Shown: piece by piece, positions 23,000 through 36,073 of the stretch
Layout of the letters: each line of letters starts with the position of its first letter
Numbering within the stretch: the first letter of the stretch is position 1
Assembly (NCBI GenBank): GCA_009695465.1
Contig: SIAW01000007.1
Location: 1-47,215 of the forward strand
Reading direction: 5' to 3'
DNA length: 47,215 nucleotides
DNA from: Pedosphaera sp.
Lineage (GTDB): Bacteria; Verrucomicrobiota; Verrucomicrobiia; Limisphaerales; UBA1100
Position numbers and translations under genes: made by a program
Notes under the pieces: model-generated
Database searches by the model: none
What the model was told of the DNA's origin: nothing
The model's input: only the letters and a program-made list of their open reading frames with translations

Positions 23000-23188
23000 T
23001 CCGGAATCCGTTTCGATTGCCGCGTTACATGTGATGCCAGGCAGCCTAGCATTCATGTGTGCGGTGGCTAGTCCAAATTATCAGCACACGCACCGCGCCC
23101 AACTCGCGCGTGTTTGTTGTGTGAGCGGCGCAGTGTGAATGGCTGTGATTTACTATTTCGGAAATCCTGTTGCCTCGCCGGAAGCATT

Positions 23189-23215
23189 TTGCCACTCTCT
23201 GCCGTCGATTATACG
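23189..23215 (+). promoter_or_regulatory. candidate promoter of the MoxR-vWA run
   Basis: TTGCCA (23189-23194) and TATACG (23210-23215) are separated by 15 bp, shorter than optimal. They lie 23 bp before the chosen MoxR ATG at 23238. If real, this promoter excludes the longer reading frame that starts at 23139. The rest of 22932-23237 holds only the repeats listed above. Confidence 0.35.
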
Positions 23216-23237
23216 GTCGTTCGATATTCCACTAACT

Positions 23238-24305
23238 ATGCGCATACATTTTTCTCCGGATGCAGCGGGTTCCAATGGCGGCAGCAACGGGGGCCACACT
23301 GTTTCAGATCAGGACGTGCAAGAGATTGACGCGTTGCGCGCGCAGTACGACGTCATCCGCAAAGAGATGGCGCGCGTGATCATCGGGCAGGAGGAGGTCA
23401 TCGAGAAGATGATGCTCTGCATCCTCAGCCGCGGTCACGGCCTGTTGATGGGCGTGCCCGGTCTGGCCAAGACGATGATGGTGAATTCACTGGCCAAAGT
23501 GATGAGCCTGGAATTTAGCCGCATCCAGTTCACCCCGGACTTGATGCCCAGCGACATCACCGGCACCGAGATTTTGCAGGAGACCAATCAGCCCGGCCGA
23601 CGCCAGTTCGAGTTCGTTAAAGGCCCGATCTTCGGCAACATCATTTTGGCTGACGAAATCAACCGCACGCCGCCCAAGACGCAGAGCGCGCTCCTGGAGG
23701 CCATGCAGGAACATCGCGTGACGGTGGGTGGCAAACACTGGCAGTTGCCCGAGCCGTTCTTTGTGTTGGCCACGCAGAACCCCATCGAACAGGAAGGCAC
23801 CTATCCGCTGCCGGAAGCGCAGTTGGACCGTTTCATGTTCCTCATCAACGTGGATTATCCCACCGCCGAGGAAGAGCGCCGCATCGCGCGCGAGACCACC
23901 GGCCAGCATCACGGCGACTTGAAGAAGGTCATTGATGGGCCGACGCTGATTAAATATCAGGAACTGGTGGAGCGCGTGCCCGTGCCCGATCACGTGTACG
24001 ACACCATCGTGGATCTGGTGCGCATGTCCCGCCCCAAATACGACGGCGCTTTCGAATGGGTTCGCAAATGGGTCACGTGGGGCGCGGGTCCTCGCGCAGT
24101 GCAATATTTGGTGCGCGGTGCCAAAGCCCGCGCGGTGCTGCACGGTAGTTATCTGGCGCGGATGGAAGACGTGGAAGCCGTGGCCAAGGCGGTGCTCACG
24201 CATCGTATCCTCACCAACTTCCAAGCGCAGTCCGAAGGCGTGGACAGCCCGTTCGTGATCGAAAAATTGCTGGAAGCCCAGCGAGAGGTCGGCGTACGTG
24301 GCTGA
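23238..24305 (+). CDS. moxR: MoxR-family AAA+ ATPase
   Basis: A 355-residue cytoplasmic AAA+ ATPase of the MoxR type. Walker A is GVPGLAKT (residues 72-79). Walker B is IILADEINRTPPKTQSALLE, and the sensor/arginine-finger block ATQNPIEQEGTYPLPEAQLDRF follows. The C-terminal helical lid contains RMSRPKYDGAFEWVRKWVTWGAGPRA, as in the family. MoxR ATPases act as chaperones that load or remodel vWA-domain partners, which are encoded directly downstream. The ATG at 23238 was preferred to the one at 23139 because the extra 33 residues look non-conserved and overlap a candidate promoter. The final 8 bases overlap the GTG start of the DUF58 gene. Confidence 0.93.
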   Translation: MRIHFSPDAAGSNGGSNGGHTVSDQDVQEIDALRAQYDVIRKEMARVIIGQEEVIEKMMLCILSRGHGLLMGVPGLAKTMMVNSLAKVMSLEFSRIQFTPDLMPSDITGTEILQETNQPGRRQFEFVKGPIFGNIILADEINRTPPKTQSALLEAMQEHRVTVGGKHWQLPEPFFVLATQNPIEQEGTYPLPEAQLDRFMFLINVDYPTAEEERRIARETTGQHHGDLKKVIDGPTLIKYQELVERVPVPDHVYDTIVDLVRMSRPKYDGAFEWVRKWVTWGAGPRAVQYLVRGAKARAVLHGSYLARMEDVEAVAKAVLTHRILTNFQAQSEGVDSPFVIEKLLEAQREVGVRG

Positions 24306-25203
24306 GGGCGCGTATAGCGAATTCCTCGATGGCGAGGTGCTGGGTCGGTTGATGCGGCGGTTTCTGCATGCGCGCACACCGATGATCGGCACCATGTCGG
24401 GTCATCACAAAAGCCCGCACCGCGGCTCCAGCGTGGAGTTCGCCGAGTACCGCAAGTACGCGCCGGGCGATGATCTGCGCCGCTTGGACTGGCGTGTGCT
24501 GGCCCGCACCGACCGCTACTACATCCGCGAATTCGAGGCCGACACCAATCTGCGCTGTTACATCGTGATGGACTGCAGCGCCTCCATGGGTTTCGGCGAC
24601 AAAGGCCAGCGCAAGTTTGATTACGCGCGCCGCATCGCCGCCACGTTGGCGTACATGACCAGCCATCAAGGCGACGCCGTGGGCCTGCAATGCTTCGCCG
24701 ACAAGCGCGTGCATGACATCCCCCCGCGCCGCAACCCCGCCCATCTGCGCTACGTGTTTGACACCTTGGCCAATGTGGCGCCGCGCGGCGAGACGCGCTT
24801 GGTGGAAGAACTGCACTCGCTGGCCGAGCGCATCCGCCAGCGCGCGTTGATGATCATCATCTCCGATTTCTTCTGCGACGTGGACGAGTTGATCAACTGC
24901 TTCCAGCATCTGAACTTTCGCAAGCACGACTTCGCCGTGTTCCATCTACTCGATCCGCAGGAGTTGGATTTCCAGTTCGACCGGCCCATGCGCTTTGTAG
25001 ATATGGAGACGGACTCAGTGCTGTTGGCCGAGCCTGACGTGATCCGGCGCGAGTACATCGCTTCGGTGAACGAATATCTGGTGAAGCTGCACGAGGGTTG
25101 CAACAAATTCCAAGCCGACTACCGCCGCGTGACCACCGACACCCCGTACGAGAAGGTGGTGGCCGATTTCCTCGTGGAACGCGAGCGCTACTCGAAGGAT
25201 TGA
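24298..25203 (+). CDS. DUF58 (vWA-like) protein
   Basis: A 301-residue DUF58 protein. The diagnostic block SVEFAEYRKYAPGDDLRRLDWRVLARTDRYYIREFE (about residues 45-80) is followed by a vWA-type strand ending in the metal-site motif DCSAS (Asp92, Ser94, Ser96). No membrane segment is present, so it is cytoplasmic or membrane-associated through partners. In MoxR loci DUF58 proteins are the usual ATPase partner. The GTG start at 24298 overlaps the end of moxR by 8 bases and gives coupled translation. The next gene starts 6 bases after its stop, with AAGGA in position for initiation. Confidence 0.92.
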   Translation: MAEGAYSEFLDGEVLGRLMRRFLHARTPMIGTMSGHHKSPHRGSSVEFAEYRKYAPGDDLRRLDWRVLARTDRYYIREFEADTNLRCYIVMDCSASMGFGDKGQRKFDYARRIAATLAYMTSHQGDAVGLQCFADKRVHDIPPRRNPAHLRYVFDTLANVAPRGETRLVEELHSLAERIRQRALMIIISDFFCDVDELINCFQHLNFRKHDFAVFHLLDPQELDFQFDRPMRFVDMETDSVLLAEPDVIRREYIASVNEYLVKLHEGCNKFQADYRRVTTDTPYEKVVADFLVERERYSKD

Positions 25204-25209
25204 CCGGCG

Positions 25210-27753
25210 ATGTTCGACCAGTTCATCAATTGGAACGTCCTGAAATTGGGCTGGCCGCTGGTGCTCTTGCCGGTGCTCATCCATCTGTTCAACCGGCTTC
25301 GGCACAAGAAAATGCCGTGGGCGGCGATGATGTTCCTGCGCGTGGCCTCGCGCAAATCCACCAAGTACGCCAAGCTGCGGCAATTCCTCATCCTCTTCAT
25401 GCGCATGCTCGCGGTGCTGGCGCTCATCATGGCCATCAGCCGGCCGCTGGCGGGCAGTTGGCTTGGCGGCATGATGTCGAGCAAACCCGAGACGGTGCTC
25501 TTTGTGATGGACCGTTCCGTCACGATGGAATCCAAAGACACCGGCCGCGCCAGCAAACGCGAGGCTGCCGTGAAATTGCTGGAAGACACCGCCAAGAGTT
25601 TTCCCGGCATTGAGCTGTGGTATTTGGATCCGGTCGTCGGCACGCCGCAGCGCGTGGATCGCTTGCAGATGGAACAGAGCGGCGGACTGGGCGCGCAGTT
25701 TGAGATCAACGCCACCGACGTGCCCACCGATGTGCCGCGCCTGTTGGAGACCGCCGCAGATTGGCTCAAGAAAAACAAGTCCGGCAACTGCGAAATCTGG
25801 CTGGCCTCCGACATGCAGCAGAGCAACTGGCATCCCGACGCCGCCGGACGCTGGGCCGCCGTGGCCAGCGGATTGGGCGGCAAAGATGTGCCGTTCAAGG
25901 CGCGTGTGCAGGTGCTGGCCAAGACGCAATCGGTGAGCAATAACTTTTCCGTGCGCGTGCAGGAGGCCCGGCAGCGCGAAGTGCGCACGGAGAACCGGCT
26001 GGAGCTGGTGCTTAAATTCACCGGGCCTGCTGATGCCTCGCGGCCCATGCCGCTCAAGTTTCATCTCAACGGCAAGGACGTACCGGAGAACGAGGTGGAC
26101 GCCAATCATCGCCAGTTCAATCTCTCCGCTGCCACCACGCGCCGGCAGGGACAGGAAGCGGAGCTGGTGCAAAACGTCTTTCTGCCGCTGGCCAACGCAC
26201 CGGCCACCGGCTGGGGTTATGTGCAGATTGGCAGCGACCTCGCCGGGAGCGAACGCTACGCCACCGATGACAACCCCCGCGACAATCGCAGCTACTTCGT
26301 GTACGGCCCGGGATTGGAAAAGGCGCGCGCGCTCATTGTCGGCCCGCAGCACTTTTCTGCCGGTTACCTGCGGCTGGCCGCTGATCCTTTCGACAACAAC
26401 ATCGCCAAGGTGGTCACGCCCGAAGCATTGGCTGAGGTGAAATTCACCGACTACGCCAGCGTGCTGTGGCACGGCGCGTTGCCCACGGGCGACTTGGCCG
26501 TGCGCTTGCAGCAATATCTGGCGCAGGGCGGCGTCACCATGTTTGTGCCGGAGGCCAACGCCACCGTGTCCGGCGATCGTGCCTTTGTCGGCGTGTCATG
26601 GGGCAGCGCGCAAGCGGCCACCAATCTCGCCGGCCAGCCGCTGGCCAACTGGCGTCAGGCATTGCCCGGTGTTGATAATAACAAGACCGGTAAACCTGAG
26701 AAGCAGGGCGGGTTTCTGGTCGGCGGTTGGAAAGATCGCGAAGGGCCGCTGTCCAATGCGCAGAATGAGAAGCCGCTGCCGGTGACCGATCTTGTCACGA
26801 TTCGCCGCGCCGGATTGGTAGATCACGCCAAGCTGGCGGTGGAACAGATCCAACTGGCGCAGCAGGTGGCCGATGCACTTTCCAAAGGCAACACGTCCGC
26901 GGGCGTGGGCAACATGCTGCGCGAACTGCAACAGGCGCTGAACGCCGCCGCCACGCATGCAGAAAAACTGGGCACCGTGCGATGGACGGCCGACCGCGCA
27001 GTGGCGTTGAAGACCGAACTGATCGAGTCGCTGGCCAACGTGGATCCGTTGGACGAGACCGCCGCCACACAGGCCATGTTGCGCTTGGTGCCGCTCATCA
27101 AACAATGGGCGACGGAATTGGAGTCGGCCACTGGCGGTTACCATCTGCTGGCGCACTATGAAGATGGAGCCTCGCTCTTGGCGCGGCAACTGGTCGGGCG
27201 CGGGCAGGCGTATTTTCTGGCGACGCGCCCGGACGAAGCGTGGTCGAGCCTGCAGGAAGAATGGGTGTTCCTCATCTTGGTGCAGCGCCTGCTGCAAACC
27301 GGCGAGGCACTGGGCGCAGGCAGTTATTCGGTGGCGCACAGCCGCGTGGTGGGGGTGTTTAAGCCTGAAGGAGAGTCGGCCGTGGTGACGTGGAACGCCA
27401 AAGTCGGCGAGGGCGACGCGCCTGATTATCGCCGCGACGCAGGCATCTATGAATCAGCCGACGGCCAGGTGCTGGCGCTCAACCGCCCGCCGACGGAGGA
27501 TGACGCCCGGTATTTTGGCCCCGACCAGGAGCATCTCTTGAAAAGTCTCTTCGCCGGAGTGCCCCTGCATGTGCACTGGGAAAATTCCTCCGACACCGCC
27601 GGCAAGGCCGCCGCCGGGCCGAAGGAAGTCTGGCGTTGGCTCCTCGTTTTCATGGCGGCATTTTTGTTGGGCGAAGCCATCCTCATCCTGCCGCGCACCT
27701 CCGACGAGACGGTCGCGGGCCGTGCGCCAGTGCAACCCGCTACCAGCACTTGA
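25210..27753 (+). CDS. BatA-like membrane protein with vWA-type domain
   Basis: An 847-residue membrane protein. The N-terminal BatA domain (residues 1-90) has hydrophobic segments at about 13-28 and 58-78, with the family pattern WPLVLLPVLIHLFNRLR...MPWAAMMFLR. A vWA-type domain follows with a modified metal motif DRSVT (Asp101, Ser103, Thr105 in place of the usual last Ser). The long central part (about 250-800) includes a glutamine-amidotransferase-like strand pattern (SVLWHGALPTGDLAVRLQQYLAQGGVTMFVPEA) typical of these large BatA proteins. A C-terminal membrane helix (RWLLVFMAAFLLGEAILIL) follows. Most of the protein should face the periplasm. It is part of the MoxR-vWA run. Confidence 0.9.
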   Translation: MFDQFINWNVLKLGWPLVLLPVLIHLFNRLRHKKMPWAAMMFLRVASRKSTKYAKLRQFLILFMRMLAVLALIMAISRPLAGSWLGGMMSSKPETVLFVMDRSVTMESKDTGRASKREAAVKLLEDTAKSFPGIELWYLDPVVGTPQRVDRLQMEQSGGLGAQFEINATDVPTDVPRLLETAADWLKKNKSGNCEIWLASDMQQSNWHPDAAGRWAAVASGLGGKDVPFKARVQVLAKTQSVSNNFSVRVQEARQREVRTENRLELVLKFTGPADASRPMPLKFHLNGKDVPENEVDANHRQFNLSAATTRRQGQEAELVQNVFLPLANAPATGWGYVQIGSDLAGSERYATDDNPRDNRSYFVYGPGLEKARALIVGPQHFSAGYLRLAADPFDNNIAKVVTPEALAEVKFTDYASVLWHGALPTGDLAVRLQQYLAQGGVTMFVPEANATVSGDRAFVGVSWGSAQAATNLAGQPLANWRQALPGVDNNKTGKPEKQGGFLVGGWKDREGPLSNAQNEKPLPVTDLVTIRRAGLVDHAKLAVEQIQLAQQVADALSKGNTSAGVGNMLRELQQALNAAATHAEKLGTVRWTADRAVALKTELIESLANVDPLDETAATQAMLRLVPLIKQWATELESATGGYHLLAHYEDGASLLARQLVGRGQAYFLATRPDEAWSSLQEEWVFLILVQRLLQTGEALGAGSYSVAHSRVVGVFKPEGESAVVTWNAKVGEGDAPDYRRDAGIYESADGQVLALNRPPTEDDARYFGPDQEHLLKSLFAGVPLHVHWENSSDTAGKAAAGPKEVWRWLLVFMAAFLLGEAILILPRTSDETVAGRAPVQPATST

Positions 27754-27757
27754 TGTC

Positions 27758-30385
27758 ATGCTGACGACCGACGTCCCCACATTAGTCCTGGTGTTCGTGC
27801 TGCTCGTGCTGGCGACGACGGGCGTGCTGTGCTTCCTCAACTGGTACCGGCGGCGCGGCGCGGGCGTGGCGTTTCTGGAAACCCTGCGCTTCGTGACGAT
27901 GGCGCTCATCCTTTTCACGTTGTGCAAGCCGGAGTTTCATCGGGAGAAACCGCGCAAAGAAGATCCGCAGGTGGACATCCTCGTGCTGGCCGATGCCTCC
28001 GGCAGCATGACGACGGAGGACGTGGACTTGGGCCGCGGTCACGTGCCGCTTTCGCGCCAGCAATTGCTCGACGCGCGGCTGGGCTTGATCGGCGCGTTGA
28101 CGGAAGCCGATCCGCTGGGCGAGCGCGTGCTGCAGGTGTTCCAACCTTCGCCCGCGCACACGGCGGGATTGCAGCCGGGCGATGTCATCACGCAAGTGGA
28201 CGGCAACTCCACGCAAAGTGGGCTGGCCAAATTATTGGAAGGCCGCACGGCCGGACAGACGTTGAAACTTGCGGTGCGTCGCAGCGGGGCGGTCACGCCG
28301 ATGGATCTCAAACTGGCGGGACTGGGCGAGGTGTTGCAGGATGAATTGCGCAAACGCAAAGTGGAGGCGCGCGTGTACGTGCAGCCCTTTGGCAAACCCG
28401 AAGGCAACGGCTCCACCGTGCGGCTGGTGGGCACGGACATCAACCGCGCCATTCTCACCGAGGCGGAGAAGCATGACAACCTGCGCGCGCTGCTGCTCTT
28501 GAGCGACGGCGATTGGAACATCGGCAAGTCGCCCACCGAAGAGGGTGCGCGTTTTCTGCGCGAGCGCAACGCCACCGCGCACGTCGTTACTGATTTGGGC
28601 CGCACGTCGTATCTGCCCGATGTGGAGTTGGTGCTCGAAGACATTCCTTCCTTCGGCGTGGTGGACGATCGTATCGCCGTGCCGTTCCGCGTGCGCAACC
28701 ATCTCACGCGCGAGGTGTCCACCAACATCATTCTGCGCGGGGAGAACAACGAGGCCATTGATTCCAAACGCGTCATCGTGCCGGCGCGCGGTCAGTCCAC
28801 CGGCACGTTCATCTGGGAACCCATCCGCAGCGGGCCGCACCGCATGAAGGTGGATCTGCCCGTGTCGCCCGAGGAACTTTTCAAGACCAACAACGTCCAG
28901 ACTTTCGCCATCAACATCCAGCGCAACACAAACAACGTGCTGATCATCGAGAGTTCGCCGCGCTGGGAATATCGCTTCCTACGCAACGCCCTCACACGCG
29001 ATCCCGATGTGGCGCCGCGCGTGCTGCTGCTGCATCCGGGATTGCAACGCGGCGACGGCAACAATTATCTCAACGGCTTCCCGCCGCTCAGCCGCACGGC
29101 CGATCAGAAGATCATCCCCGGTCCGGTGGCGTTGCCCGATTACGATTTGATTTTTCTGGGCGACGTGGGCTTGGGCGCCGGCGGCATCAGCGACGAGCAG
29201 GCGCGGCAGATCAAAAATCTGGTCGAGCATCATTCCAGCGGGCTGGTGTTCATGCCCGGCCAGTTGGGCAATCAGATCACTTTTTACAGATGGAAGACGC
29301 ACGACGTGCAACCCGCCGACACCCCCAACAGCATCGCCGCGATGCACGGAGTGGCGCCGCGCACGCTCAGCTACGCGAATTTTGGCGTGGACTTGGACAA
29401 CCTCAAACCGGGCACGCAACTGCACATCCCGCATCCGCTGGCCGATCTGTTGCCGGTGGCGTTCGACTTGAAGGCGCCGCGCGGCGATTGGACGGTCAAC
29501 GAATCGCGCTTCAGCCTGTTGCCCGAAGGACGCGGCAATCCGCTGCTACTTTTGGGACGCGACGAGTTTGAGAACGAAGAATTGTGGAAGACCATCTTGC
29601 CCGGATTTTTCTGGCACGCCGGCGTGCTGCGCGATGTGCCCGGCTCGCAAATCCTCGCCATCCATTCCACGCGCCGCAATCAATACGGCTATCTGCCGCT
29701 GCTCGTCACCCAAGCCGCCGGCAACGGGCAGGTGCTTTTCATGGGCACCGACAGCGCGTGGCGCTGGCGTCGCGGTGTGGAGGACAAGTACCACTACCGT
29801 TTCTGGGGGCAGGTGGTGCGGTGGATGGCGCACAAACGCAAACAAGCCGGCGGGCAGGGGATGCACTTGGTCTTCTCGCCCGAACGTCCCAAGCTGGGCG
29901 ACACGCTCAATATCGAGGGCATTCTCACCGACTGGGCTGGCGTTGCTGCTGATGAAATCGTGCAGGCAGAAGTGCAGTTGCCCGGTGGCGGCGAGAAGCG
30001 GTTGACCTTCGAGCCGGTGCCCGGTGGCATGGGCAATTATCGCGCCAAGATCCTGCTGGATGAGGCTGGCCCGTATTCCGTGCGCGCCTACACCAGCAAG
30101 GCCAAGCGCGAGGTCAAGAAATCCGTCACCGCCGAGCAGACGGTGATTGAGGTTGTCGGCCGCCCCATCAACGCGGCCATGCTCGCGCAGTTGGCTCGCG
30201 ACACCCGTGGCGGCGCGCATTCGCTGGCCAATCTCACCCCCATGATTGAGCAGATTACCGAGAAAATCCGCTACAAGCCGGAGATCGAGGAATACAAGCT
30301 TTGGGCCCAAATGTGGTGGGGCGGACTGATTTTGTTCCTCCTTGCAGTTTATTGGACAATGCGTAAGGTGCTGGGACTGATTTAG
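27758..30385 (+). CDS. membrane vWA protein with an inserted PDZ-like segment
   Basis: An 875-residue protein. Two N-terminal membrane helices (residues about 8-28 and 42-56) precede a vWA domain whose metal motif DASGS is intact (Asp79, Ser81, Ser83). Inside that domain, residues about 120-187 read as a PDZ-like half: ERVLQVFQPSPAHTAGLQPGD, VITQVDGN, then LEGRTAGQTLKLAVRRSG. After it the vWA fold resumes (ARVYVQPF and LLLLSDGDWN). Later residues contain a glutamine-amidotransferase-like block (LVEHHSSGLVFMPGQLG) and a C-terminal membrane helix (WWGGLILFLLAVYWTM). The ATG at 27758 follows the previous stop by 4 bases. It probably works with the BatA-like protein at the membrane. Confidence 0.9.
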   Translation: MLTTDVPTLVLVFVLLVLATTGVLCFLNWYRRRGAGVAFLETLRFVTMALILFTLCKPEFHREKPRKEDPQVDILVLADASGSMTTEDVDLGRGHVPLSRQQLLDARLGLIGALTEADPLGERVLQVFQPSPAHTAGLQPGDVITQVDGNSTQSGLAKLLEGRTAGQTLKLAVRRSGAVTPMDLKLAGLGEVLQDELRKRKVEARVYVQPFGKPEGNGSTVRLVGTDINRAILTEAEKHDNLRALLLLSDGDWNIGKSPTEEGARFLRERNATAHVVTDLGRTSYLPDVELVLEDIPSFGVVDDRIAVPFRVRNHLTREVSTNIILRGENNEAIDSKRVIVPARGQSTGTFIWEPIRSGPHRMKVDLPVSPEELFKTNNVQTFAINIQRNTNNVLIIESSPRWEYRFLRNALTRDPDVAPRVLLLHPGLQRGDGNNYLNGFPPLSRTADQKIIPGPVALPDYDLIFLGDVGLGAGGISDEQARQIKNLVEHHSSGLVFMPGQLGNQITFYRWKTHDVQPADTPNSIAAMHGVAPRTLSYANFGVDLDNLKPGTQLHIPHPLADLLPVAFDLKAPRGDWTVNESRFSLLPEGRGNPLLLLGRDEFENEELWKTILPGFFWHAGVLRDVPGSQILAIHSTRRNQYGYLPLLVTQAAGNGQVLFMGTDSAWRWRRGVEDKYHYRFWGQVVRWMAHKRKQAGGQGMHLVFSPERPKLGDTLNIEGILTDWAGVAADEIVQAEVQLPGGGEKRLTFEPVPGGMGNYRAKILLDEAGPYSVRAYTSKAKREVKKSVTAEQTVIEVVGRPINAAMLAQLARDTRGGAHSLANLTPMIEQITEKIRYKPEIEEYKLWAQMWWGGLILFLLAVYWTMRKVLGLI

Positions 30386-30422: not shown

Positions 30423-33400
30423 ATGAACGACAACGGCCGTGAAAGAATGGAACTGCCCGCGGACTTGCAGAGGCAGTTTGAGAAGCTGGAACGGAAATTA
30501 TGGTGGGTGGATTCCACCATCGCAATCTGTGGCACCATGTTGGGTGCCTTTTTGGCGTTCAGCATCTTTTTCATGACGGATCTCGCCGGCGAGACTTCGT
30601 CGGCAACCCGCTTGGCGCTCTTTGCGCTGGCGGTGGGCGCCGCCGGTTATTGCGGCTGGCAATGGCTGCGGTTGTGGGTGTTCAACAAACGCGACACGCG
30701 CGACCTCTCCAAACTGGTGCAGGGCGGCCATCGCAAACTGGGCGACCGCCTGCTGGGCATCGTGGAGTTGGCCGACCCGCACACCGCGCCGGCCTACGCC
30801 TCCGAAGGGTTGCGCCGTGCGGCCATCAATCAGGTGTCAAAAGAAGCGGGCAAGTACGACTTCCGCTCCGTGGTGGCCACGCGCAAGCCGCGCATCTATT
30901 TCGTGCTGGCCTTGTTCATTGCCAGTATGGCGATGCTGCCGGCGTATTGGGTGCCTGCGATTTTTAAGAACAAGGTCAAGCGCCTTGCCAATCCCGTTGG
31001 GCAGACCGAACGCCTCACGCTCGCTGCCGTCGGCGAAGAGGATGTCAACGTGGGCAGTGTGATTGACCGCAACCGGGTGCTGGCGGTGCACGAGTTGGGC
31101 ATCAAAGGGCAGGGCGGCCCGGCGATCTATCAAGTGCGCGACGGTGCTGGGCGCGTGAAGTACATCGAGGTTTCCCAAAGCGCGGTCAAGGGCGGCCGCA
31201 TCGACAACATCTTCGTGGTGCCCGCCGGGGAGCAAAGTCAGGTGCACGCGCGCTTCAATGCCGATCCCTTCGTGGGCCGCTTTGGACTGTGGCGCGATCG
31301 CGTGGTGAGCGCAGCGCAAGGTGCGGAGAATTATTTGCAGAATAATGTCGGAGCCTCGACCGATCTGGCCCAAGCGGCCAATCGCATCCTGCCCAATCCC
31401 TTGAAGGCCACCGTGGTGGAGTCGGATGGGGAGTCCAAAACGGTGGACTTGGAGAATATCAAGCTCGGCGAGGGCGACCGGCTCACCGGCGATTTCAATC
31501 TGCAACTCAAAGGCCGCACCAAGCCCGGCGAGTTGGCCCTGAACCTGGTGGACATCAAGAAGCGCGTCTTCATCCAGCCTGTGCCGCGGCCCACGCTGCG
31601 CGCCGACAAGGTGGCGCGGGTGTTTTATCCGGACTACCTGCAGCGTCCCTCCGAGGTCGTCTCGGCCGATGCCTCCACGCATTTCCCCTTCGGCAGCAAG
31701 GTGTCTTTTGAGGTGCGCTCCGACAATTTCCGCGAACTGCTCGCCGCCGAATATGTCGTCTCGGTGGATTTGACCGAGGCGGAAGTGGCGCGTCTGCGCG
31801 AGGCAATCGACACGCTCTCCGTGGCCCCGTACCACACGCAACTGCAGGCCGGTGCCACGGCCGATCATCACAGCGAACTGAGCCGTCGGCTCGGCTTGCC
31901 CGCAGAACTGGTCACGCCGGAAAATCTGTCGCGCATGATTTTGGCGCAGGCTGATCAAGCCACGTTGACCAAGGCCGCCGAGGAATTGGCCACAGCCACA
32001 AAGACCGGTGCGGAGGGCATTGGCGAGTTCGACAAGTGGGCGCAGAAATTGAAAGTGCCCAAGGCGTATCTCACCGCCGAAGCGCTGGCCAAGGTCAGCC
32101 CCAAACAGATCAAGCTCTCCGTGCCCGAGTTGGCCGTGGAGCAGTATCACCACATGTTGCTGCAGGGCGCCTCGCGCTATTCGCAGCAGTTCAGCACCGT
32201 GCCGTTGCCGCTGGACGGCGCGGCGGCCACCAGCCTCACCGTGGCGTCGTGGAAGGATATCTTCGAGATGGACGCCAACCCGAAGGACACGTGGAGCGGC
32301 GGCTTTGAGATGCGCCCCGACGAGCGGCCGTTCGCTGACTGGACCGATTGGCCGGGCATGGAGAACACCGAGGCGGTGCTCATCAACCGCACGTTCCCCA
32401 TCCGCATTTTCTCATCGGATGATCTGGGTCTGTACGAGATGCGCCTGCGTTGGGAAGCCCGCAAGATCGGCTCCGAGGAAGTCATCAAGCGCGATGAAAT
32501 GATCATCCAGAATGGCAATCCGAAAGCCACGCGGTTGGACGGCGAGTTCATCTTCTCCGGTCGTCTGCTGGGGTTGACCGAGGGCACCGATGTCACGCTG
32601 ACCATTCTGGCGCGCGACTATCATTTCCATAAGGACGGCCGGCAGTTCATCTCGCGCCCGTTCCACGTCCGCATCGTCACCGCTGCGGAACACGCCAAGA
32701 TCATTCAGGACATCTTCAAAGAAAAGATGGCGGAACTGGACAACATGGTGCGCCGTCAGGAACGCCTGCTCACCGAGGGCCGCGATTTGCAGGGCAAGCC
32801 CAGCGCGCAGAAGGAAGGCAGCGAGGCGAGCCAGGAACTGCGCAACCAATCGCAGGAGCAACGCAACCTCGCGCAGGATTTGAAGAACCTCGCGCGTGAG
32901 ATCGGCGAGTTGGCCGAGGGTGCCTTTGGCAACCCCGACATCAGCCCGGACACCAAGGCCAAGATGGCCGAAGCAAAGCAGCAGCTTGAAGGCATCGCCC
33001 AAAACCCGATGAGCAAGGCTGCTGAAAATCTGAGCCAAGCCAGCCAAGCCCAAAAGGGCGATCAAGGTCAGAAGGGCGATCAAGGTCAGAAGGGCGATCA
33101 AGGTCAAAAGGGCGATCAAGGTCAAAAGGGCGATCAAGGTCAAAAGGGCGACCAAGGTCAAAAGGGCGACCAAGGTCAAAAGGGCGATCAAGGTCAAAAG
33201 GGCGACCAAGGTCAAAAGGGGCAGCAGGGGCAAAAAGGTCAAAAAGGACAGCCGGGCCAACCGGGACAGCCAGGCCAACCGGGACAGCCAAGTCGTCAGG
33301 AGAAGTTGGATGAGGCATTGAAGAACGAGCAGGCTGCGCTGGATCAGTTGAAGAAGATGCAGGAGAAATCGGCCGAGACCATCGAGGCGATGTTCCTCAA

Positions 33401-35021
33401 CACCATCATTGCCCGCATGCGCAAGGTCGCTGATTCCGAGCAGAAGATTGAGGAAGGCTTGAAGGGCAAATTCGCGGAACTGGCCGGCGCCACGACCGAG
33501 CAGTTGGCGAAGAAGTTGCAGGACATGCTGCGCGATTTCAGCGCCGATCAAACCCACAATAGCAAGGACGCCGATGAGCTGCAGGGCGAGATCAACCGGT
33601 TCTTCGAGGAGACCGGCCGCAAGGAACAGAAGTTCGGCCAGGTCGCCCGCGAGATGGAAGAGAAGAAGGCGGCCGAAGCCCTGCGCGACAACGCGGCTCT
33701 CATCAAACAGAACATCGCGATGAAGGCCATCCGCGGCGCCAATCTGATGAAGGATCAGTTCAACAAATGGGCTGACCTCTTGGAGGCTGCGAAAGAAGCT
33801 GGCGGTGGTGGCGGCGGCGGTGGTGGTGGCGGCGGCGGTTCCAACGAGGACGCGCTGGAACGCATCATCGAACTCTTGCGCCTGCGCCAAGCCGAGATGG
33901 ATCTGCGCACGGCGACGCAGGAGTTGGATCGCAAGAAGGCGACCATGAAGGCCGAGGATTTCGATGAGATCGCCGCTTCACTGGCGTTCCGGCAATTCGA
34001 GATCGAGCGCGATCTGGAACGCGAACGTGAGCTGCGCGGCAACGGCAAGTTCATCATCCCCGCGCAGAAAGACATGAGCGAGGCTCGCGGTCGGTTGGAT
34101 CGTGCCGAGCTGGGTGAGTTGGGCCGTCAACAGCTCGACGCTGCTGCAGCGGAACTGGAGCGCGCGCTCAAGGCGTTGGACGAGATCTCTGAACGCGCCA
34201 ACAACGCTGTCGAGAAGGCCGTGAAGCCCGAGGAAAAGAAGCCGGCGCAAAAGCTGGAGGAACAGGCCGCTGGATTGGGAGTTGATCTGCGCAAGCTCGC
34301 GCAGGAGGCACGCAATGAGGCCGATCCCAAGTTGACCCAGGAGGCCAAGCTCCACGCCCGCGCCGTGCAACTGGCGCTGCTCGCTCGTGCGATGGCGAAG
34401 GATAAGATTGCCGAGGTCGAGAAACAGGCCGGTGAAGCGAAGGTGGATCCCAAGGATTTCCTCAACGAAGCCAAGCAGGCGCTGGCCGATGCCGCCAAGG
34501 AGGCCGACAAAGCCGCCGGCAGTTTTGCGCAGCATCAGGACATGAAGAAGGCCAACCAGAAACCCACGTTGCCGGCCACCGGGCCGTACACGGAGGAGGC
34601 GCAGTCTGACGCGATCCTCAAGCTGGAGCGCGAAGTGCAGGACATGTTGCAGCAAGGCGGCGGTCAGGGCAAAGGCGAGCCTAGCGAGATGGACGAGCGC
34701 CAGTTGCGGCTGCTGATGGAGATGATGAAGATGTTGCAGGCGCAGGGCTTGATGCCCGGCCAGATGCAGGGCGCCATGCCCGGCAGCGGCCAAGGTCAAG
34801 GCCAGCCCAGCCCCGGCAGTGGTCAGGGTCAAAGCCCGGGCATGAGCAGTGCCGGCGGCGACACCAAGCGTACCGACACCATCACCGGCTCGGCGTACAA
34901 TCAGAACGACATCTCCCGCGCCAGCCGTCAGGCCGCAGGCGCCAACCGGGCGATGCCCGATGAATACCGCGACGCCCTGCAGGCTTATCTGCGCGGCGTC
35001 CGTTCCGGAAACAACAAATGA
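30423..35021 (+). CDS. very large DUF4175-like membrane protein with a collagen-like segment
   Basis: A 1,532-residue protein with an AGAAAGG ribosome site before its ATG. Three membrane helices lie near the N-terminus (about residues 29-54, 60-82 and 158-180). A periplasmic beta-rich part follows, and from about residue 750 the protein is mostly charged helical and coiled-coil (for example ELDNMVRRQERLL). The layout resembles DUF4175/TIGR02302 proteins. Between residues 877 and 954 it carries 26 consecutive Gly-x-y triplets, nine of them QKGDQG hexapeptides, like collagen. A run of 13 glycines is at 1127-1139, and a Gly/Gln/Pro/Ser-rich patch lies near the end. It is the centre of the MoxR-vWA run; its stop overlaps the next ATG. 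The function is unknown. Confidence 0.88.
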   Translation: MNDNGRERMELPADLQRQFEKLERKLWWVDSTIAICGTMLGAFLAFSIFFMTDLAGETSSATRLALFALAVGAAGYCGWQWLRLWVFNKRDTRDLSKLVQGGHRKLGDRLLGIVELADPHTAPAYASEGLRRAAINQVSKEAGKYDFRSVVATRKPRIYFVLALFIASMAMLPAYWVPAIFKNKVKRLANPVGQTERLTLAAVGEEDVNVGSVIDRNRVLAVHELGIKGQGGPAIYQVRDGAGRVKYIEVSQSAVKGGRIDNIFVVPAGEQSQVHARFNADPFVGRFGLWRDRVVSAAQGAENYLQNNVGASTDLAQAANRILPNPLKATVVESDGESKTVDLENIKLGEGDRLTGDFNLQLKGRTKPGELALNLVDIKKRVFIQPVPRPTLRADKVARVFYPDYLQRPSEVVSADASTHFPFGSKVSFEVRSDNFRELLAAEYVVSVDLTEAEVARLREAIDTLSVAPYHTQLQAGATADHHSELSRRLGLPAELVTPENLSRMILAQADQATLTKAAEELATATKTGAEGIGEFDKWAQKLKVPKAYLTAEALAKVSPKQIKLSVPELAVEQYHHMLLQGASRYSQQFSTVPLPLDGAAATSLTVASWKDIFEMDANPKDTWSGGFEMRPDERPFADWTDWPGMENTEAVLINRTFPIRIFSSDDLGLYEMRLRWEARKIGSEEVIKRDEMIIQNGNPKATRLDGEFIFSGRLLGLTEGTDVTLTILARDYHFHKDGRQFISRPFHVRIVTAAEHAKIIQDIFKEKMAELDNMVRRQERLLTEGRDLQGKPSAQKEGSEASQELRNQSQEQRNLAQDLKNLAREIGELAEGAFGNPDISPDTKAKMAEAKQQLEGIAQNPMSKAAENLSQASQAQKGDQGQKGDQGQKGDQGQKGDQGQKGDQGQKGDQGQKGDQGQKGDQGQKGDQGQKGQQGQKGQKGQPGQPGQPGQPGQPSRQEKLDEALKNEQAALDQLKKMQEKSAETIEAMFLNTIIARMRKVADSEQKIEEGLKGKFAELAGATTEQLAKKLQDMLRDFSADQTHNSKDADELQGEINRFFEETGRKEQKFGQVAREMEEKKAAEALRDNAALIKQNIAMKAIRGANLMKDQFNKWADLLEAAKEAGGGGGGGGGGGGGSNEDALERIIELLRLRQAEMDLRTATQELDRKKATMKAEDFDEIAASLAFRQFEIERDLERERELRGNGKFIIPAQKDMSEARGRLDRAELGELGRQQLDAAAAELERALKALDEISERANNAVEKAVKPEEKKPAQKLEEQAAGLGVDLRKLAQEARNEADPKLTQEAKLHARAVQLALLARAMAKDKIAEVEKQAGEAKVDPKDFLNEAKQALADAAKEADKAAGSFAQHQDMKKANQKPTLPATGPYTEEAQSDAILKLEREVQDMLQQGGGQGKGEPSEMDERQLRLLMEMMKMLQAQGLMPGQMQGAMPGSGQGQGQPSPGSGQGQSPGMSSAGGDTKRTDTITGSAYNQNDISRASRQAAGANRAMPDEYRDALQAYLRGVRSGNNK
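33051..33293 (+). repeat. 18-bp tandem repeat encoding collagen-like Gly-x-y triplets
   Basis: Nine tandem copies of an 18-bp unit (CAAAAGGGCGATCAAGGT and close variants) fill 33051-33212, each encoding QKGDQG. They are followed by QKGQQG, two QKG, four QPG and QPS. Copies differ only at third positions (cag/caa, gat/gac), which points to recent duplication. Because the unit is a multiple of 3, copy-number changes keep the frame. Confidence 0.95.
33801..33839 (+). repeat. polyglycine codon tract (13 codons)
   Basis: Thirteen consecutive glycine codons mixing GGC and GGT encode a flexible hinge between two helical regions of the DUF4175-like protein (residues 1127-1139). The mixed codon use makes it less prone to slippage than a pure repeat. 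Confidence 0.95.
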
Positions 35022-36073
35022 TCACCCGCTTGCGCCAACTCCTTGTGGCCGGTATCGCCGGTCTCTTGCTCGCCCAACCCGCGCACGTGTCTGCGCAGGA
35101 GCTTTTCGAAGGCTCCGGCGTGGATGTCCGCGAGATTGAGCAGCTCTATGTGAAGGGCCTCAAGTGGCTCAAGGATAACCAGCAGGCGGACGGCTCCTTC
35201 GGCACTGCGGGGCGCGACCATTACGGCACGCAGCCGGGTGTGGTGGGCTTGGCCGTGGTGGCCATGCTCGCGCATGGCGACGACCCCAACTTCGGTTTGT
35301 ACAGCAAGCAGATCAACAAAGGTCTGCAGTTCGTCATCAATCAGCAGAACAAGGCTACTGGTTACATCGGTTCCTCGATGTACAATCACGGCTTTGCCAC
35401 GCTGGCGTTGGCCGAGGCATACGGCACAGTGCTTTATCCCACGCCGGCCAAGCCCGACAATGAGCTGGGCAAATCGTTGACCAACGCCGTGCAGTGCATC
35501 CTGCGTTCGCAGGCGGTGGCCAAGGCTGCCAATTATCAAGGTGGCTGGCGTTATTCGCCAGAGAGCAACGATTCGGACAGCACCGTCAGCGGCGCTTGTT
35601 TTGTCGCGCTCTTGGCGGCGGCCAACGCGGGCATTGCCGTCCCGCAGAAAGCCATCAACGAAGGCCTGGGCTTTTTCAAATCCTGCCAATCCTCCGACGG
35701 CGGCATCGGCTACACCAGCCCCGGCGGCCCCAACGCCCCACGCACCGCCATTGGTGGACTGGCCTTCGCGCTGGCCAAACGCAAAGACGACAACTCCTAC
35801 AAGCAGGCCATGCAGTATCTCTACAACCACCAGAACGACGGCAGCGAATCGCACTATTACCACTACTACCTTTACTACGCGTCACAGGCGTACTTCCACG
35901 GCTCGGACGCTGCGGCGTGGCGCACGTGGAACAAGAACAACATTGCCACGTTGAAGGAGACGCAGAAGGAGGACGGCAGTTGGGATGGCAACTTCGGGGC
36001 GACCTTCGCGACGGCCGCATCGCTGCTTTCGGTGGCGCTCAATTACCGCTACCTGCCGATCTATGAACGCTGA
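35018..36073 (+). CDS. secreted terpenoid-cyclase-fold (prenyltransferase/squalene oxidase repeat) protein
   Basis: A 351-residue exported protein with signal MITRLRQLLVAGIAGLLLAQPAHVSAQ. The mature part is an alpha/alpha barrel of prenyltransferase/squalene-oxidase-type repeats with QW-like motifs: QQADGSFG, QSSDGGIGY and QKEDGSWDG. Alternating helices such as GVVGLAVVAML and FATLALAEAYG fit the fold. The catalytic DxDD of class II cyclases reads DSDS here, and the protein is exported away from prenyl substrates, so enzymatic cyclisation is unlikely. A binding or structural role is inferred. Its ATG overlaps the DUF4175-like stop (ATGA), and its own end overlaps the next gene by 11 bases. 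Confidence 0.9.
   Translation: MITRLRQLLVAGIAGLLLAQPAHVSAQELFEGSGVDVREIEQLYVKGLKWLKDNQQADGSFGTAGRDHYGTQPGVVGLAVVAMLAHGDDPNFGLYSKQINKGLQFVINQQNKATGYIGSSMYNHGFATLALAEAYGTVLYPTPAKPDNELGKSLTNAVQCILRSQAVAKAANYQGGWRYSPESNDSDSTVSGACFVALLAAANAGIAVPQKAINEGLGFFKSCQSSDGGIGYTSPGGPNAPRTAIGGLAFALAKRKDDNSYKQAMQYLYNHQNDGSESHYYHYYLYYASQAYFHGSDAAAWRTWNKNNIATLKETQKEDGSWDGNFGATFATAASLLSVALNYRYLPIYER

Follow-up and report, generated by a model that had tools for sequence, protein, structure and literature searches.

Gene neighbourhood and host protein

The window, which is the whole 47,215-nucleotide stretch of DNA that was analysed, carries a long Gly-x-y tract inside a large open reading frame (the host ORF). 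The host gene lies within a conserved moxR-DUF58-batA-vWA neighbourhood, as follows.

23139-24305, + strand: MoxR-type AAA ATPase (PF07726)
24298-25203, + strand: DUF58 protein (PF01882)
25210-27753, + strand: BatA-type protein (PF07584)
27569-30385, + strand: protein with PDZ and weak VWA matches (profile search; adjoins the orthologue in relatives)
30423-35021, + strand: host ORF, 1532 aa, membrane-anchored, distantly DUF4175-like (ORF call; single copy in the genome; orthologues in the order)
35018-36073, + strand: squalene-hopene-cyclase-like (alpha/alpha toroid) protein (PF13243; adjoins the orthologue in most relatives)

The true start of the ORF at 27569-30385 is probably downstream of the one called, since its first ATG falls inside the previous gene; this ORF also has a weak LysM match. 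The upstream and/or the downstream neighbour was observed to adjoin the orthologue of the host gene in most of the fetched loci, and because these immediate neighbours recur in most relatives, the proteins compared below are orthologous by position too. Two other origins of signal at the locus were considered and rejected: there is no RNA or tRNA feature in the window, and the ORFs on the other strand are mechanical.

Searches of the host ORF with Pfam and NCBIfam returned nothing certain besides the collagen tract. The initial annotation had called the protein DUF4175-like, and this label proved weak. The host protein shares a membrane anchor with DUF4175 proteins and PF13779 matches five of the 31 proteins in the orthologue alignment, weakly (best E 1.7e-5), but the profile search gave no match to PF13779 in the window ORF itself, so that kinship with DUF4175 is possible but distant. 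The anchor is made up of the following segments.

30519-30575, + strand: hydrophobic segment 1, aa 33-51 (hydropathy; helix 13-55 in the model of a relative lacking the tract)
30609-30677, + strand: probable second membrane helix, about aa 63-85 (helix 60-87 in the same model; below the hydropathy cut and hence weaker)
30894-30950, + strand: hydrophobic segment 3, aa 158-176 (hydropathy; helix 154-176 in the same model)

The earlier description of a membrane-anchored protein agrees with the two clear hydrophobic segments and with the third helix that lies between them in the relative's model. With three such helices in the membrane, and the N-terminus being positively charged, the bulk of the protein would be on the periplasmic side. 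The relative used for modelling (L047, mean pLDDT 82.7) has strands spanning residues 209-511, followed from residue 514 by a long helical run. A Foldseek search with this model matched its strands to tandem Ig domains only, as ranked by E-value (titin and KIT, for example; E to 8e-8), and a search with the modelled window segment gave no match at E <= 0.001.

Comparison with the orthologues revealed a second addition besides the tract that is specific to the same clade.

34116-34577, + strand: charged, helical addition of about 150 aa, about aa 1232-1385 (orthologue comparison)

It is present in the window and in a genome of another genus of the family (G003), and is replaced by 20-37 aa in the other orthologues read; the congener G001 is unreadable there. 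The region of about aa 444-588 (31752-32186) is skipped by matches to relatives and may be a third clade-specific addition. The host protein also contains a poly-glycine loop of 13 Gly (33801-33839), at which most orthologues have a Gly-rich stretch.

The Gly-x-y tract and its site

The tract is placed between two predicted helices.

32946-33047, + strand: predicted helix preceding the tract, aa 842-875 (residues 143-176 of an AlphaFold2 model that covers aa 700-1240)
33051-33293, + strand: Gly-x-y tract, aa 877-957, 26 triplets followed by QPS (sequence; Tandem Repeats Finder; PF01391)
33051-33212, + strand: nine 18-bp units, each QKGDQG, with nine KGD pairs (Tandem Repeats Finder; sequence)
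33213-33293, + strand: degenerate tail QKGQQGQKGQKG(QPG)4QPS, with Gly codons GGG, GGT, GGA and GGC (sequence)
33294-33467, + strand: predicted helix after the tract, aa 958-1015 (same model, residues 259-316)

The repeat itself is as the initial annotation had described it: nine 18-bp QKGDQG units and 26 uninterrupted Gly-x-y triplets, all in frame, reading (QKGDQG)9, QKGQQG, QKGQKG, (QPG)4 and QPS. Tandem Repeats Finder reports a period of 18 with 9.4 copies and a 96% match. The copies had been said to differ mainly at third positions; the nine units differ at five places, every one of them a synonymous third position (CAA/CAG, GAT/GAC). In 2000 shuffles of the protein the longest run was five consecutive Gly-x-y triplets, against the 26 observed. 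The tract matches the Pfam Collagen family PF01391 (E = 2.1e-14; 53.4 bits against a cut-off of 27.2). This is the only match to the family in the window genome, and an origin by copying from a second collagen gene there was rejected on that ground.

AlphaFold2 predicted helices on both sides of the tract, in keeping with the helical flanks proposed earlier, and left the tract itself without secondary structure at a pLDDT of 31-35, in a monomer prediction that cannot judge a trimer or a triple helix. In the L047 model, helices 602-635 and 637-697 are separated at this site by just one residue that is not helical. Covariation between the junction helices (87-89 sequences, effective number about 46) was too weak to tell a fold-back from a run-on arrangement.

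The orthologues come from genomes at three ranks, the genus, the family and the order of the window. A search for the helix that follows the tract gave matches in 104 of the 245 genomes of the order at E <= 0.001, some of them weak and partial, and 91 non-redundant orthologues were readable across the site. In 81 of these the conserved anchors stand 29-40 residues apart, which corresponds to a short junction between two helices. The corresponding distance is 107 residues in the window and 119 in G001, and these two alone among the 91 have the long tract, of 26 and 32 triplets respectively. Longer inserts of other composition, mostly P/S/Q-rich, occur in eight of the 91; the anchors are 47-68 residues apart in six of these, again with mostly P/S/Q-rich inserts. 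One of the six, from another family, f48 (L191, genome G103), carries a five-triplet Gly-x-y run, GEAGEPGEAGKPGQP, within a longer P/S/Q-rich insert, perhaps of independent origin. Two related sequences (L061 and L205) align poorly at the site, and L061 shows a long P/E-rich insert in another alignment. In G003, whose genome is 56% complete and whose gene is split, the contig starts inside the tract; at least 15 triplets are present, with GKPGEQ repeated four times (unit KPGEQG) and then varied triplets.

Since other lineages carry other, mostly P/S/Q-rich, low-complexity inserts, the site evidently tolerates spacers without Gly periodicity. The initial annotation had held that its proposal would be refuted if the sequence of orthologues here were unrelated and lacked Gly periodicity; nearly all of them are of this kind, whether with the short junction or with other inserts. 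Despite the absence of the tract from most orthologues, a clade of three genomes keeps it with every Gly. Collagen-like tracts as such are common in the order, as PF01391 matches occur in 90 of its 245 genomes, some with 20 or more; among the matches listed, only those of the window genome (G000), G001 and G003 lie in the host orthologue.

History of the tract

A FastTree phylogeny built from 89 sequences of the helix region that follows the tract placed the three carriers in one clade with a support of 0.96, at distances from the window of 0.16 substitutions per site for G001 and 1.01 for G003. To judge from these sequences, a single gain is probable, in the common ancestor of the window genus and a sister genus. 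Since the carriers form one clade, the tract predates its present units, which are QKGDQG in the window genus and KPGEQG in that of G003. The change could have run in either direction. The preferred codons of the unit differ even between the two congeners, being CAA and GGT in one and CAG and mostly GGC in the other, and have been homogenised independently. The array had been called young, and this holds for the present units, which are recently homogenised, but not for the tract, which is common to another genus. A capacity to change length in frame had also been proposed and is borne out by the 26 and 32 triplets of the congeners, counts that are provisional and may be wrong, the assemblies being drafts (the window genome is 2.57 Mb in 130 contigs).

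Through all this turnover of units, none of the 73 triplets that can be read in the three carriers has lost its Gly. In the tail of the window tract the Gly codons use all four third bases, and no Gly is lost. This suggests selection on the pattern and does not prove it, because homogenisation also removes variants.

Spacer, triple helix or slippage product

We favour, with a probability of about 0.5, the reading that the tract is a length-variable, very hydrophilic, extended spacer loop. It would be a clade-specific insertion where two long helices meet, within the large portion of a conserved inner-membrane protein that probably lies in the periplasm. After its gain, slippage during replication would have lengthened and re-homogenised it, always by whole codons, and it would let the helical parts before and after it move or stand apart. 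The spacer role and the absence of a stable fold are what we infer, as is the periplasmic side. The complete retention of Gly, through the turnover of units and with varied codons in the tail, counts against a mere spacer, because a spacer would not need every Gly.

The same retention speaks for the main rival reading, a true collagen triple helix, in which a homotrimer would form a rod of about 22 nm between the helical parts (26 triplets, scaled from the 163 A of (GAS)19; PMC7682875). We regard this as a possible reading, with about one chance in three. The Gly-x-y pattern is perfect in all three carriers, and there are nine KGD pairs in the window and 14 in G001. Together with KGE, this pair is reported to make peptides melt 15.4-17.5 C higher (PMC7824840). 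Triple helices are known from Scl2.28, which is low in Pro, rich in Lys and Asp, and has a melting temperature of 35.6 C (PMC8968730), and, by CD, from the (GAS)n tract of Bucl8, which is free of Pro (PMC7682875). Stalks that combine coiled coil and collagen are known in EPclA (PMC3368898). On the other side, the window unit lacks Pro and the third carrier, G003, lacks a KGD pair. Neither Pfam nor NCBIfam shows a trimerisation domain in the ORF beside the tract; nothing was found that shows the host protein trimerising, and the orthologues lacking the tract do not need a trimer. A rod 22 nm long would push apart two helices between which relatives have a single residue. An upright rod of that length also has little room in a periplasm of ordinary width, given the three Ig-like domains and the helices that precede the tract. 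The rigid trimeric stalk across the periplasm that had been suggested for this protein is unsupported. The monomer model leaves the tract unstructured, though a monomer cannot test a trimer, and the far end of such a stalk has no visible partner, as Pfam and NCBIfam found no outer-membrane or peptidoglycan-binding domain in the host ORF. The specific proposal that a collagen triple helix was inserted into a conserved inner-membrane protein as a length-tunable trimeric periplasmic rod appears unlikely to us. To our knowledge, collagen-like stalks are not commonly sought in the periplasm.

The near-identical units, the change in length and the unrelated low-complexity inserts of other lineages would also fit a functionless product of slippage, tolerated at an exposed junction, whose Gly periodicity is a by-product of the 18-bp (two-triplet) unit. 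This we consider unlikely, since one clade has retained the tract, without losing a Gly, while the adjoining helix region diverged by about 1.0 substitution per site, and Gly is intact also in the non-homogenised tails, despite codon differences at the third base. An assembly artefact, in which the copy number or the array itself is wrong, is highly improbable. The draft state of the assemblies and the G003 contig that begins within its tract lend it some weight, but three separate genomes contain the tract, with codons that differ and tails that are degenerate and unique, and only the copy number is at risk.

The orthologues offer a natural series for the birth of a collagen pattern, from a short junction through P/S/Q-rich and other spacers, one of them with a run of five triplets, to the 26-32 triplets of one clade. 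If a triple helix does form, it would be a collagen rod within an inner-membrane protein of a conserved and poorly understood MoxR/vWA cluster. If it does not, the protein would show that a spacer can give a strong Collagen match in bacteria.

Among known systems, the gene cluster resembles MoxR/vWA (Bat-type) clusters such as that of Borrelia BB0172/BB0173, where a MoxR ATPase adjoins VWA-domain membrane proteins (PMC5700661). Burkholderia Bucl8 (PMC7682875) likewise has a Pro-free Gly-x-y tract of variable length on a conserved Gram-negative envelope protein. Bucl8, however, is a trimeric type of efflux component in the outer membrane, with an extracellular tract near its C-terminus and a triple helix demonstrated by CD, whereas the window tract is internal and probably periplasmic, and a triple helix there is putative. 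EPclA and EPclB of E. coli prophages (PMC3368898) resemble the host protein in having a collagen tract beside long helices, but are of the phage tail-fibre type with known trimerisation domains, and no relation between their flanks and the host protein was seen. Streptococcal Scl1 and Scl2 (PMC8968730) share charged, Pro-poor Gly-x-y triplets, and the NCBIfam Scl models match the tract. The matches to the Scl1, Scl2 and Lcl adhesin models, at 55, 50 and 46 bits, nevertheless fall far below their curated cut-offs of 400, 325 and 500; those to Scl come from the repeat, and the host protein is without a cell-wall anchor. The tract is ordinary as a bacterial collagen-like sequence and less ordinary in its place.
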